The position numbers and the translations under genes were made by a program. DNA of 64,000 nt from Litorimonas cladophorae (GTDB taxonomy: Bacteria; Pseudomonadota; Alphaproteobacteria; Caulobacterales; Maricaulaceae). This document shows, in pieces, positions 37,216 through 59,888 of the stretch (positions within the stretch are counted from its first letter, which is position 1; each line of letters starts with the position of its first letter). The notes under the pieces are model-generated. The model searched no databases and was not told where the DNA came from. It was given only the letters and a program-made list of their open reading frames with translations. Location: assembly GCF_014652455.1 (NCBI RefSeq), contig NZ_BMYV01000002.1:372001-436000 (forward strand), written 5' to 3'.

Positions 37216-37824
37216 ATGAACTTTTTCTCGTCTTCTCTTCAAGCCCCGATAAAGTTTCGGGTTATCAAAACACTGGGTTTCGCGCTCGGTGTTCTGTCTT
37301 TGACAGCCTGCGCAGAAACCCAAGTCGAAACACCGCTGTCGGCGTTCCATCACAGCATTCAATCCCTGTGCGGGCAGAGCTTCCAAGGTAAAGTGATCAG
37401 TCAAGACGCGGTGGACGAAGACTGGCGACGAGAGGTTTTGACCCTCGGCCCGATTACGTGTTTGTCAGAGAATAAGACCTCTATGGCGCTGGATGTCGGC
37501 GCAGACAAAAGCCGCGTCTGGTCTCTGGAAATGATGGATCAAGGCCAAGCCCTAGAATTTAAACATGCGCATACGCTCAAAGATGGATCTCCTGATCCCG
37601 TCACAAATTATGGTGGCATGGCGTCAGGCGAGAGCACCGCAACCCGCGTAGTCTTCCCGGTCGATCAAGAGTCGATTGATAATTTTCGTGAAAATGGGTT
37701 GGATGCTTCTGTGACCAATGTTTGGTCTTTTACGCTCGTCCCAGAGACGTCGCTAACTTATGAGTTGCGCCGCGAGAACCGAGAATTCATCGCTGTTTTC
37801 GACCTGACGAAGCCGTCGCCATAA
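37216..37824 (+). CDS. Predicted lipoprotein, function unknown
   Basis: 202 residues. N-terminal signal with lipobox LTAC and Cys32. The mature part has two more Cys and mixed strands; no recognised domain. It begins one base after the stop of the hybrid kinase and is presumably co-transcribed, so it may belong to the same signalling process, although that is inference. Confidence 0.75.
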   Translation: MNFFSSSLQAPIKFRVIKTLGFALGVLSLTACAETQVETPLSAFHHSIQSLCGQSFQGKVISQDAVDEDWRREVLTLGPITCLSENKTSMALDVGADKSRVWSLEMMDQGQALEFKHAHTLKDGSPDPVTNYGGMASGESTATRVVFPVDQESIDNFRENGLDASVTNVWSFTLVPETSLTYELRRENREFIAVFDLTKPSP

Positions 37825-37902
37825 AGGCAGCCGCGAACGAAAGTAGGGGCTTTGGAAGTCTTTCCCTACTTATAAGAAAACTGAACCCTTTGTTATTACG
37901 CC

Positions 37903-37920
37903 CTTAAATCTAAATTTAAG
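37903..37920. promoter_or_regulatory. CTTAAAT inverted repeat upstream of RNA copy A
   Basis: CTTAAAT (37903-37909) and ATTTAAG (37914-37920) are perfect reverse complements with a 4-base spacer, centred about 58 bases before the predicted start of the structured RNA. Could be a regulator site. The TTAA spacing (8 bases) does not fit the CtrA consensus of 7. Confidence 0.45.
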
Positions 37921-37969
37921 AGAATGATCCCCGCTCACCATTTCACCCCTATGTTTAAATAGTTCTTTC

Positions 37970-38240
37970 GGACACGGGACAGGTAGGAGCTCACCTGCCG
38001 TATCGAGAGACGGCGGGGTTGAGCGGCTGCGTGTGAGAGCGCGGCGTGTGCCGGACCTTTTGGGTGAGAGCCGATGCCTGGGGCCAAAGTTGCCCTAACT
38101 GGTAGGACAGACGGGCCGCTCCGTCAAAAACCGCTGCCGCAGGGTTCGTGCATCTGATTAGCAACCAGATACACGGTCATCGCGTAAAACATTTTTCTAT
38201 TTTGGTCCTCCATCGCGGAGACCACCCTGCGGACTGTCCC
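37970..38240 (+). ncRNA. Structured RNA of unknown family, copy A
   Basis: No ORF explains this 488-base gap. The 25 bases at 37959-37983 (from the -10 region into the RNA) are identical to 58782-58806 on the minus strand, and three later blocks recur in the same order: TCGCGTAAAACA (38180), CCATCGCGG (38210) and GCGGAC (38229). Predicted helices: GGACACG (37970) with CGTGTGCC (38045); GGGACAG (37977) with CTGTCCC (38234), which would close the molecule; ATCTG/CAGAT around loop ATTAGCAAC (38152-38170); and a hairpin capped by ATCGC (38204-38223). CTGATTAG in one loop is also complementary to CTAATCAG at 38243-38250. The ends are predictions. It fits none of tmRNA, RNase P, SRP or 6S consensus that I know. 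Confidence 0.7.
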
Positions 38241-38266
38241 ACCTAATCAGACATCGCATAATTTGG

Positions 38267-38295
38267 CAGCCCCCCTGAAACAAGGTGAGGGGCTG
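38267..38295. terminator. GC-rich hairpin between RNA copy A and dapD
   Basis: CAGCCCCCCT and AGGGGCTG pair around an 11-base loop. It lies 18 bases beyond the dapD stop and just after RNA copy A, so it may end transcription from both sides, but neither strand has a T tract. Confidence 0.4.
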
Positions 38296-38312
38296 TGAGC
38301 GATGACGCTTGG

Positions 38313-58033: not shown

Positions 58034-58462
58034 ATGCCGTCTAATGACAATAAGCCGTTTACCGATATTGCCGCCGTGAACGCCATGTTTGCAGCCCATT
58101 TCCCTGACAACGAAACCCGGGCGATCGTAACGGAAATGCGGGATGGCTTTGCTGCATTAGAATTAAAATCCGATGCGCGCCATCTGCGCCCAGGAAATAT
58201 GGTGAGCGGCCCCACGCAAATGGCCCTTGCTGATACTGTTGCCTATGTCGTTGTTTTCACCAAATTGGGTATTACGCCAATGGCGGTGACATCGAATTTG
58301 AATATGCATTTTTTACGTCCATGTTTGGGGCCTTTGGTGCGTGCGGAAGGAACTTTGCTGCGTATTGGAAAAACGTCTGCCACAATAGAGGTTCGCATTT
58401 TTGGGGAAGGTCATTCGGAGCCGTCGTCATTCTCGACCGTGGCCTACGCATTGCCCAAGTGA
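58034..58462 (+). CDS. PaaI-type hotdog thioesterase
   Basis: 142 residues from ATG 58034 (TTG at 57995 would add 13 non-conserved residues). Hotdog fold pattern: HLRPGNMVSGPTQMALADTVAYVV and SNLNMHFLRPC, then LLRIGKTSATIEVRIF, as in the PaaI/YbgC-like thioesterases. Hydrolyses an acyl-CoA thioester, perhaps from amino-acid breakdown given the context. The following gap carries a structured RNA on the opposite strand. Confidence 0.82.
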   Translation: MPSNDNKPFTDIAAVNAMFAAHFPDNETRAIVTEMRDGFAALELKSDARHLRPGNMVSGPTQMALADTVAYVVVFTKLGITPMAVTSNLNMHFLRPCLGPLVRAEGTLLRIGKTSATIEVRIFGEGHSEPSSFSTVAYALPK

Positions 58463-58507
58463 AAACCCTTACAGCCCATCTCGTGACTGCCGATATTGAG
58501 AATAATC

Positions 58508-58795
58508 AGGACGTCCGCGTGGCGCAAACCGCGATGGCCTGCCAAGAGTGTTCTAAATGTGTTTTACGCGACTTGCGACCAATGTGTGTCAATCCATTGA
58601 CCTATGCGAAGCGGCGCATGCCGCACCGCAATACCACGCGGCGGTGTGTCTCGAATAACGGCCTCACTTGATTGCAACCGTTCCAGGTTGTCAGGCACGC
58701 GCTACTCGGCCCCTCTACATTTGCATTACTAAATGCAGATAGGCACACCGTCTTTCGGACCAGCCAGTCAATGATCACGAGCCTGTCCCGTGTCC
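58508..58795 (-). ncRNA. Structured RNA of unknown family, copy B
   Basis: Minus-strand counterpart of the RNA at 37970-38240. The 25 bases at 58782-58806 are identical, and TCGCGTAAAACA (58571-58560), CCATCGCGG (58537-58529) and GCGGAC (58518-58513) follow in the same order with nearly the same spacing. Helices are kept with different bases: CAATG/CATTG around GATTGACACA instead of ATCTG/CAGAT around ATTAGCAAC, and GGCC/GGTT around the same ATCGC loop instead of TCC/GGA. A further hairpin CTGCATTT/AAATGTAG lies at about 58716-58739. Predicted start 58795 from a good promoter. The 3' end is set by GTCCT near 58508 pairing with GGGAC. Function unknown. Confidence 0.72.
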
Positions 58796-58801
58796 GAAAG
58801 A

Positions 58802-58831
58802 ACTATAGAACCCTATCACAGTTTCTTTCAA
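58802..58831 (-). promoter_or_regulatory. Promoter of RNA copy B
   Basis: On the minus strand, -35 TTGAAA (58831-58826), an 18-base spacer and -10 TATAGT (58807-58802), predicting a start at about 58795 on GGACACG. The -10 to start segment is identical in copy A, whose -35 is poorer. Confidence 0.7.
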
Positions 58832-59141
58832 CGCGGAGTATTGTCCCAAAATGCGGCTCTGAGAATTGATTTCTTATCAGAAAAGTTTTTCAAAAAAGCG
58901 GAAAGAAATGAATTTGAGGGTCTTCAACGCGGTTCACTCGCATAGAATGGTGACTTATGAGGCGGGTTAGGAAAGCCTAATTCATGGATTTACAAAACCA
59001 TCTAAACCCTACATCCTCCGATCGTGTTCAATGACTTTCAAATCGCGCTTGCACAACACGTGCTCCGAAACTGGCTGACAGGTCACGCTTAGACAGCTTT
59101 CATTTTGCTGACGATATCAGACATTATGAAAGACAGAGACA
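58832..59141. other. Gap upstream of kynA, nothing recognised
   Basis: Between the promoter of RNA copy B and kynA. AT-rich around 58870-58915, no ORF with a ribosome site, no terminator and no clear palindrome. It presumably contains the kynA promoter. Confidence 0.5.
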
Positions 59142-59888
59142 ATGAACCGATCCGAATATGAAGTGATGATGCGTGGCGCAGGCCAGCTTGATTACGAAAT
59201 TTATTTAAATACAGCGCGTCTTTTGGCGTGTCAGAAGACACCCGAAGACCTCTGTAATCCTGACGAATTACAGTTTATGATTGTCCATCAGGTCGAAGAG
59301 CTGTGGATGAAGCTCATGGCGACAACTCTGCTGGATATTCATGACGAAATGCTTGCGGGGAATACATTTAAAGCGCTGACGCTGTTTCGACGAGTCCATA
59401 TTTGCCAAGAAATGATGACGACCCAGTTGTCGCTTTTGGAAACTATGTCGCCGAAGGATTATCAAGAGATCCGTCTTCTTTTGGGGAATGGAAGCGGGCA
59501 AGAAAGCCCTGGATTTCGAGTTCTGCTGAAGATGCCGAAGGACCTTTGGGCTACGTTTGAGGCGGTTTATCTGGAGAGTGGGAACCGCACGCTTGAACAG
59601 GTTTATGACAGCGAATATAGGCATGATGATACCTATATGATCGCTGAAGCGCTCGCGGAATTTGATGAACAGTTCCAAAAGTTTCGCAATGCGCACATGC
59701 AATTGATCTATCGGTCCATCGGCGTCGCAGCCAATTCCCTCAAAGGACGGCCCGTGGAAATATTGAATGAAGGTTTACGTCAAAAATTTTTCCCAGCGCT
59801 TTGGACGGTACGGGCTGAAATGACAGATCGTTGGGGCGGCAGCTATGGCCAAAAGCGCGCAAAATTAGAGCCCAAAGCAGATGCGTGA
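59142..59888 (+). CDS. kynA: Tryptophan 2,3-dioxygenase family protein (divergent)
   Basis: 248 residues, shorter than usual (about 270-280). Recognisable by DELQFMIVHQVEELWMKL (distal His), YQEIRLLLGNGSGQESPGFR (carboxylate-binding Arg region) and KFRNAHMQLIYRSIG (heme-ligand His). The loop after it, normally GTGGSSG and contacting the substrate amino group, reads VAANSLKGRP, so the substrate may not be free tryptophan. Overlaps the kynureninase-like gene by 8 bases. The kyn symbol rests on this pairing. Confidence 0.78.
   Translation: MNRSEYEVMMRGAGQLDYEIYLNTARLLACQKTPEDLCNPDELQFMIVHQVEELWMKLMATTLLDIHDEMLAGNTFKALTLFRRVHICQEMMTTQLSLLETMSPKDYQEIRLLLGNGSGQESPGFRVLLKMPKDLWATFEAVYLESGNRTLEQVYDSEYRHDDTYMIAEALAEFDEQFQKFRNAHMQLIYRSIGVAANSLKGRPVEILNEGLRQKFFPALWTVRAEMTDRWGGSYGQKRAKLEPKADA

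Follow-up and report, generated by a model that had tools for sequence, protein, structure and literature searches.

The window analysed here, a 64,000-nt stretch of the Litorimonas cladophorae genome (contig NZ_BMYV01000002.1, positions 372,001 to 436,000), holds two copies of an element that likely represents a new, probably dimerizing RNA family, one that is multi-copy, is probably co-regulated with the gene transfer agent (GTA), the virus-like particle by which these bacteria hand DNA to one another, and would constitute an RNA part of the GTA programme. Comparative evidence describes its members as structured RNAs of about 230-420 nt with their own promoters; the family is apparently undescribed, and occurs in marine Hellea-like bacteria as dozens of scattered copies. 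Folding energy alone makes a weak case, being just modestly below that of shuffles (z -1.95 and -2.72), and it is therefore on the relatives of these two copies that the argument rests.

Two copies in the window

The first-pass annotation of the window had drawn attention to a 25-base block at 37959-37983 (+) with an exact repeat at 58782-58806 (-). The repeat is as reported, and a search allowing up to 3 mismatches gave 2 matches, with 0 in 100 shuffles. The motifs said to recur in both copies, TCGCGTAAAACA, CCATCGCGG and GCGGAC, do so in the same order, with gaps of 196/210, 18/22 and 10/10 bases, the first of which had been counted as 197/211, i.e., off by one. Copy 1 is flanked by ORFs ending at 37824 and 38313, and its RNA core, delimited by BLAST and covariance-model matches, begins on the + strand with the conserved head GTTCTTTCGGACACGGGACAGG and finishes with the second strand of helix P1 (37962-38240). 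Copy 2 lies between a thioesterase-like ORF (end 58462) and an ORF starting at 59142 (families named by eye), with a 116-aa ORF (58321-58671) on the opposite strand within its interval; its core, placed by alignment, occupies 58509-58803 (-).

The RNA fold

The fold was established by comparative sequence analysis. Helix P1 closes the RNA, and inside it come hairpin P2 on the 5' side, a central domain (P3) that is exchangeable between copies, and a domain on the 3' side (P4). The P1 5' strand of copy 1, GGGACAG, is at 37976-37982 (earlier placed at 37977) and its partner CTGTCCC, confirmed by a sequence check, at 38234-38240, both on the + strand, as are all features of this copy given below. 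Long-range closure by these two words had been proposed from the window, and its outline stood: among 114 near copies the outermost P1 pair is G-C in 74, G-U in 36 and A-U in 4. Among the divergent copies that could be located, by contrast, the outer pair formed in just 17 of 34. Folding places the P2 hairpin, CAGGTAGGAGCTCACCTG, at 37980-37997, directly 3' of the P1 5' strand, and its loop carries the palindrome GAGCTC (37987-37992), a predicted homotypic kissing loop.

Helix P3, with strands CGGCGG (38011-38016) and CCGCTG (38131-38136) in copy 1, closes the central domain. Over 107 near and 34 divergent elements it was 92.9% paired in 40 distinct combinations, as against at most 86.3% when shuffled. 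The domain it encloses comes in at least three unlike classes (30, 12 and 4 of 46), all closed by the same P3; copy 2 has the class II version.

The 3' domain was matched by covariance model R1 at 38136-38240 in copy 1 (92.5 bits) and at 58508-58642 (-) in copy 2 (61.7 bits), both copies being among the sequences from which R1 was built. An alignment of 45 such domains, 44 of them distinct, had 93.5% of its cells paired and 77 cells changed on both sides (0 of 500 shuffles), and partners slid out of register were at most 50.9% paired. Helix P4 (CCGCAGGG at 38137-38144 with CCCTGCGG at 38225-38232) was 99.7% paired in these 45 domains, with exchanges between G-C and A-U. Within P4 the alignments and covariation define an exchangeable hairpin with a ATTAGCAA loop (38152-38170), strand A (38174-38184), the conserved GTAAAACA in invariant or nearly invariant columns (38184-38191), strand B (38203-38210) and strand C (38214-38224), which can pair with A or, alternatively, with B. 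Two-sided changes occur in 7 of the 11 pairs of helix A-C, while the competing helix B-C was 93.2% paired, with two-sided changes in 4 of its 8 pairs, several kept by G-U; as strand C covaries with both A and B, the 3' domain would have two states. P4 and A-C recurred in 71 matches from 12 other genomes, with 290 two-sided cells in an alignment fitted to the model.

Two further pairings proposed from the window were abandoned. The letters of the supposed pseudoknot between CTGATTAG (38154-38161) and CTAATCAG (38243-38250) are present, but such a 7-nt match turns up in 4 of 113 copies, no more often than in a control that takes the downstream region from a different copy (also 4 of 113), so it looks like chance. 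The closure of a 5' domain by GGACACG with CGTGTGCC is not conserved, CGTGTGCC being found in 5 of 114 copies.

Beyond P1, two hairpins, GCAGCCCC..GGGGCTGT and AGCG-ATGA-CGCT (38266-38309), mark the probable 3' end region of copy 1, and hairpin words of this kind (any of a set) lie downstream of 75 of 113 copies. Short hairpin cassettes, slightly varying forms of TTGAAACnnnnnGTTTCAA, occupy one loop in one copy and another loop in the next, like exchangeable inserts; they were seen in the downstream regions of L014, L016, L020, L024, L025, L030, L033 and L038, and in the class III central domain of L032-L034 and L042.

Comparison with known RNA classes

That the element is a new structured ncRNA family, as first suggested, is strongly supported: a search of Rfam placed no family on the RNA at its gathering threshold, so the novelty stands, a covariance-model search of related genomes found further homologues with compensatory changes, and the promoter is conserved. 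Equally sound was the statement that it is not tmRNA, RNase P, SRP or 6S RNA, since no Rfam 15 family matched in the window and ARAGORN found no tmRNA there. In eight loci of the same genome, searched at E up to 10, the only Rfam match was to skipping-rope, below its cut-off (26.5 of 36.7 bits) and on the minus strand of L003; in 16 distant loci the sole match over cut-off was a tRNA gene (L206:199-270), outside the RNA 3' domain at 600-715. A known Rfam class was rejected on the absence of any match at cut-off on the RNA in the window and in these 8 own and 16 distant loci. Near another copy, L197:555-635 gave a sub-threshold match to mir-1295 (45.5 of 100 bits, E 2e-6) that is probably a chance hairpin.

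HEARO, the omega RNA of IscB, is likewise structured and can occur in many stand-alone copies; the RNAs described here differ in having no Rfam match and in carrying on their 5' side a conserved promoter, not a variable guide. In the open-access literature GGACACGGGACAGG was not found, nor a noncoding RNA mentioned together with Hellea or an RNA motif with Robiginitomaculaceae, which leaves absence from print unproved. Papers there that deal with gene transfer agents and Rhodobacter and name noncoding RNA do so once each. The main texts of PMC11150451, PMC9632790 and PMC13236601 contain none of the searched terms for non-coding RNA or sRNA.

Copies and taxonomic range

The two-copy state proposed at first proved far too low. 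The L. cladophorae genome holds at least 42 copies, if loci are counted that match a model or the head; 43 matches were obtained with model R1, for which 45 copies were used, and 52 by BLAST with copy 1. Within the genus, 13 of 18 genomes were positive at E 0.01, with up to 50 matches per genome (R1). Across the order 17 of 398 genomes were positive, all 17 within the same family. A broader model, R2, found the RNA at E 0.001 in 36 of 137 genomes of the family, spread over 6 of 19 genera, with a single and sometimes weak match in 7 of the 36, and in a sample of the class in only 1 of 385, L. cladophorae itself. These counts and absences are lower bounds, as at most 9 candidates per genome were scored under strict filters in the order and class searches and at most 26 in the family search, and distant family members could have been missed. 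The sole model match in one genome (L070:1501-1579 in G007), by eye lacking a recognizable P2 and a head upstream, may be chance or degenerate.

In a collection of contigs the head motif occurred in at least 101 stretches. Among the 80 contig titles listed, 5 were from unrelated bacteria, and these matches, which lack the 3' domain, we take as chance; the remaining listed matches came from uncultured Caulobacterales MAGs and from Hellea sp. MAG-194, Hellea being placed by NCBI in Robiginitomaculaceae. Many MAG copies sit at contig ends (e.g., G011:C3 and C6; G343:C7, C22 and C31), so near-identical copies probably break the assemblies, and MAG counts may be too low.

On contigs C1-C3 of the L. 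cladophorae genome the copies are spaced slightly more evenly than random (41 copies, mean 65 kb, CV 0.74 vs 0.95, P 0.037), none of the 41 positions being closer than 7 kb to another; the positions were entered by hand, some approximately, and we regard the evenness as too weak to use. A protein partner encoded beside the copies was sought and none found, the nearest ORFs varying from copy to copy.

Conserved places, exchanged sequences

Comparison of flanking genes yielded 12 cross-species pairs, involving 10 L. cladophorae loci, with matching genes on both sides. In 35 pairs with at least one matching side, hand-picked from the flank list (11 of these, and one further pair, match on both sides), the P2 palindrome was shared by 2, where random pairing gives 4.6. 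Copies within one genome, in turn, share long identical modules: L011 and L015 have an identical 3' domain of 110 bases but different P2 hairpins. The comparison established a pattern in which, to judge from the flanks, loci are old and sequences exchanged, orthologous places being kept between species while the sequences in them turn over. Reverse transcription is not needed for this turnover, given that the L. cladophorae genome has no RVT_1 match.

Such turnover is also what might be expected of a selfish non-coding element riding the GTA, i.e., one that captured the GTA promoter, so that its DNA or RNA gains an advantage during particle production, and that overwrites homologous places in recipient cells by conversion, with no gain to the host. 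This is the best rival to a functional RNA, and we hold it to be unlikely, if by no means fanciful. The many copies fit it, as do their patchy presence in 36 of 137 genomes, the scarcity of shared palindromes at orthologous places, the mosaic exchange of domains and the promoter signature held in common with the GTA. It fits less well with the conservation of many places across species, or with a genome that carries 43 copies and no reverse transcriptase. Plasmids, phages and viral contigs, searched by exact patterns and by blastn with copy 1 only, yielded no copy, and a plasmid-, phage- or virus-borne element was set aside for the same reason. Pure selfish DNA needs neither covarying RNA helices nor palindromic loops that change.

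The promoter and its link to the GTA

A profile of upstream regions, using 109 of the 114 elements, contains a far element TCCccGTTTT, an element TTTCAnnnCTTA that we take to be IHF-like from the general form of the IHF consensus, then the signature AAGAGAATGATCCCCGC and lastly a -10 embedded in the pattern TGnTA. In copy 1 these correspond to CCCTACTTAT (37864-37873), which aligns with the family's far element in the -98 block, to the weak IHF-like TTATTACGCCCTTA (37893-37906), to an exact copy of AAGAGAATGATCCCCGC in the -35 region (37918-37934) and to the -10 TATGTT (37950-37955). Copy 2 lacks a clean signature; its promoter (58804-58875, -), with a degenerate one, has a profile score of 20.0, the second best in the window. 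In many promoters (e.g., L019, L024, L016) the -10 is flanked by inverted repeats, AACCTGTG..CACAGGTT or CCATTTTA..TAAATGG, and in some copies the arms vary together. As a general feature they were dropped, the best fixed register being just 57% paired.

The promoter signature proved to be common to the RNAs and the GTA cluster. With up to 2 mismatches, AAGAGAATGATCCCCGC has 25 sites in the L. cladophorae genome, 24 at RNA copies and one, the sole non-RNA site, ending 69 bases before a phage portal gene; the reversed control pattern gave 2 sites at up to 3 mismatches. The search also uncovered a new copy, L246, with the loop GTCGAC. The portal gene lies in a GTA cluster (G000:C1:84.5-100 kb) of portal, prohead protease, capsid, connector and tail proteins with GTA_TIM and GTA_megatron, and the families characteristic of an RcGTA-like agent (PF04860, PF04586, PF05065, PF13547 and NF048004 GTA_megatron) are all found in this one cluster. 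Genome G010 gave 16 signature sites and no control-pattern site: 13 right before RNA heads, one at 244 bases before a head, the portal promoter, and a divergent RNA-like element. The last (L286, G010:C4:353966) has the promoter signature and a TTGCAA-centred hairpin and was missed by model R2; further RNA classes may lie beyond the reach of that model.

In 14 of 20 portal loci, the top-scoring site of a matrix made from RNA promoters alone fell immediately before the portal gene, against a chance that we estimate at ~1/40 per locus; these were 11 of 14 loci in genomes with RNAs and 3 of 6 in genomes without. Twenty of 21 portal loci were tested, L272, a weak second match in G014, being left out. 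In a locus cut at a contig edge (L266) the top-scoring site stops 94 bases short of the portal match, and in G343 (L260) the two best sites of the locus precede the portal gene and the capsid gene, respectively. This capsid-gene promoter of the same type lies inside the GTA cluster, ~2.1 kb after the start of the portal match. The matrix did not rank the portal promoter best in 6 of the 20 loci, the L. cladophorae GTA promoter itself scores just 6.7 bits, and chance sites in apparently coding DNA reach 18.3 bits. When the portal upstream region was instead aligned to the RNAs of its own genome, it ranked first in 6 of 11 genomes, with G022 barely above background, and elsewhere 45th (G003), 10th (G361) and 23rd (G087); 11 of 14 genomes were scored, G008, G010 and G016 being left out.

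The presence of the RNA is uncoupled from that of the GTA. Among 22 genomes tested, a portal homologue was found in 14 of 15 with the RNA, the search giving no portal match in G163, and in 6 of 7 without it (G001, G012, G014, G017, G018 and G020), a mismatch that makes the RNA at most an accessory of the GTA and not a core part. Between terminase and portal in the GTA cluster (L245:1177-3059) lie an HTH plus N_BRCA1_IG protein, a DUF2726 protein and one protein with no family; no phage families were seen there.

According to PMC11150451, the Caulobacter GTA promoter combines elements for GafY and IHF with a -35 AATCAT and a -10; beyond gafYZ and the GTA, GafY occupies 18 further places, and at 18 of the 20 in all it does so together with IHF. 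The RNA promoters have the same order of elements, i.e., a far activator site, an IHF-like site, an unusual -35 (AATGAT here) and a -10. Unlike the Caulobacter GTA promoters, they appear by eye to lack a GafZ-type palindrome between -35 and -10. From this shared layout we infer that the RNAs may belong to a GafY/IHF regulon, and, by analogy with that paper's account, CCCTACTTAT of copy 1 is a candidate GafY element.

The same layout could arise if the RNAs were ordinary regulatory sRNAs under IHF and a general activator, their likeness to GTA promoters being no more than a shared IHF architecture. IHF, according to the text of PMC11150451, binds hundreds of places in Caulobacter (430 peaks), and the unmatched portal loci and the uncoupled presence of RNA and GTA would cause such a reading no difficulty. 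We nonetheless rate it somewhat below the selfish element, as the 17-nt signature at up to 2 mismatches marks RNAs and GTA only in L. cladophorae, and likewise in G010 bar the one divergent RNA-like element. Moreover, the signature falls between the IHF-like site and the -10, and hence is not the IHF site itself.

Palindromic P2 loops

The tip of P2 is a self-complementary six-mer that differs between copies yet stays palindromic. A 6-nt Watson-Crick palindrome was present in 24 of 31 distinct P2 windows (mean 4.7 and maximum 12 in 2000 shuffles), and in 7% of other windows of the same RNAs; in divergent genomes the count was 15 of 23 (shuffle mean 3.8, maximum 12). With G-U allowed the excess was smaller: 29 of 31 windows qualified where shuffles reached up to 25, and in the divergent genomes 19 of 23 where they reached up to 20, so that there only the Watson-Crick count beats the shuffles. 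The windows include stem bases, and the shuffle is thus not a pure hairpin null. For the near count 10 of 140 heads were dropped, the 5 chance matches from unrelated bacteria and a further 5, L142, L152, L165, L167 and L171, that were truncated or escaped the class rule; of these, L152, L165 and L167 do have a Watson-Crick palindrome. The divergent set took 67 of 71 model matches (L199, L220, L223 and L230 left out), 34 of the 67 being placed by rule.

Thirty-six copies of the L. cladophorae genome carry GAGCTC (7), GGGCCT (7), TGATCA (6), GACGTC (5), AGCGCT (4), GTATAC (4), GACGTT (2) and AGGCCT (1). The Watson-Crick types are GAGCTC, AGGCCT, AGCGCT, TGATCA, GTATAC, GACGTC, GGCGCC and CGATCG, joined in divergent genomes by ACGCGT, ACATGT, CGTACG and GATATC and, by eye, by GTCGAC, GTGCAC, ACTAGT and GCGCGC. 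Copy 2 has TGATCA (58772-58777, -), and its predicted pairing specificity is therefore unlike that of copy 1. The predicted borders of the loop vary between copies, the outer bases of the six-mer often lying in the stem. Complementary change in both halves of the loop amounts to intermolecular covariation, which suggests pairing between the same loop of two molecules; the tips predict homotypic kissing-loop dimers between copies with the same loop.

It was also considered that the palindromes act as DNA, i.e., that dimeric proteins or modification enzymes recognize them, the RNA fold being of lesser importance. Perfect DNA palindromes are present in 100 of 127 typed copies. The remaining 27 are symmetric only via G-U (GGGCCU in 20 copies, UGAUCG in 5, GACGUU in 2) and favour pairing as RNA, and the palindrome stands at a hairpin tip and differs from copy to copy, a variability at odds with recognition by a single fixed DNA-binding protein; a DNA role is accordingly improbable. 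A SINE-like retroelement, reverse-transcribed in trans, would account for dispersed mosaic copies with internal RNA structure, and the text of PMC4066764 describes retroviral dimer initiation sites as palindromic loops too, but we give it hardly any credence, spread by reverse transcription being largely refuted by a 100% complete genome with 43 RNA matches and no RVT_1 (6 of 18 genus members have one) and by promoters that the copies keep although these lie upstream of the presumed RNA start.

A possible role in the GTA programme

The reading that we prefer, a dimerizing RNA family co-regulated with the GTA, implies a simple course of events. GafY and IHF would transcribe the RNAs together with the GTA, so that they accumulate when it is switched on; like would then pair with like through P2 to give kissing-loop homodimers; the choice of strand C between A and B would set two states; and an RNP or RNA assembly could form and be used in the producing cell. 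As a working guess, the RNA is a structural or regulatory component of an RNP in that cell and not a guide RNA. A fuller version, which we put forward tentatively and with more doubt than conviction, would make the paralogous RNAs a non-coding arm of the GTA, sorted into homodimer classes by palindrome and switched on with the particle genes, that helps to make, load or release particles or else exploits them to spread, while gene transfer keeps swapping domains among the RNAs and thereby renews their sequences at conserved places.

The packaging RNA of phi29 is a structured RNA that oligomerizes through its loops and works with the phage portal, but it forms a ring by pairs of non-identical loops and is encoded once, whereas the loops here are self-palindromic and the copies many; a packaging role lies outside the claims made. 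The closest analogy for an assembly is provided by the phage-borne, homo-oligomeric ROOL and GOLLD, which the text of PMC12286853 presents as large bacterial RNAs of phage-like elements with kissing loops and a function as yet unknown, GOLLD rising during phage lysis. By comparison, the RNAs here are about 230-420 nt, occur as dozens of scattered chromosomal copies per genome, have one short palindromic loop in many variants and share a promoter signature with a GTA, and their oligomers are predicted from sequence. OLE RNA, in the same paper, is an RNA-only homodimer held by an intermolecular kissing loop; it is another family by sequence, and the likeness in dimerization is on our side a predicted one. 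In the window and in the 8 own and 16 distant loci searched, the RNA copies matched none of the ROOL, GOLLD and OLE family models of Rfam.

GTAs are domesticated viruses whose fitness value is debated, and a large RNA family, spread over many loci and sharing their promoter signature, would add a new layer to this system. Loops that have diversified while each stays self-complementary could serve as a natural code keeping RNA homodimers orthogonal, and places that persist while their sequences are swapped would preserve a natural history of recombination between repeats, to which the GTA may contribute.
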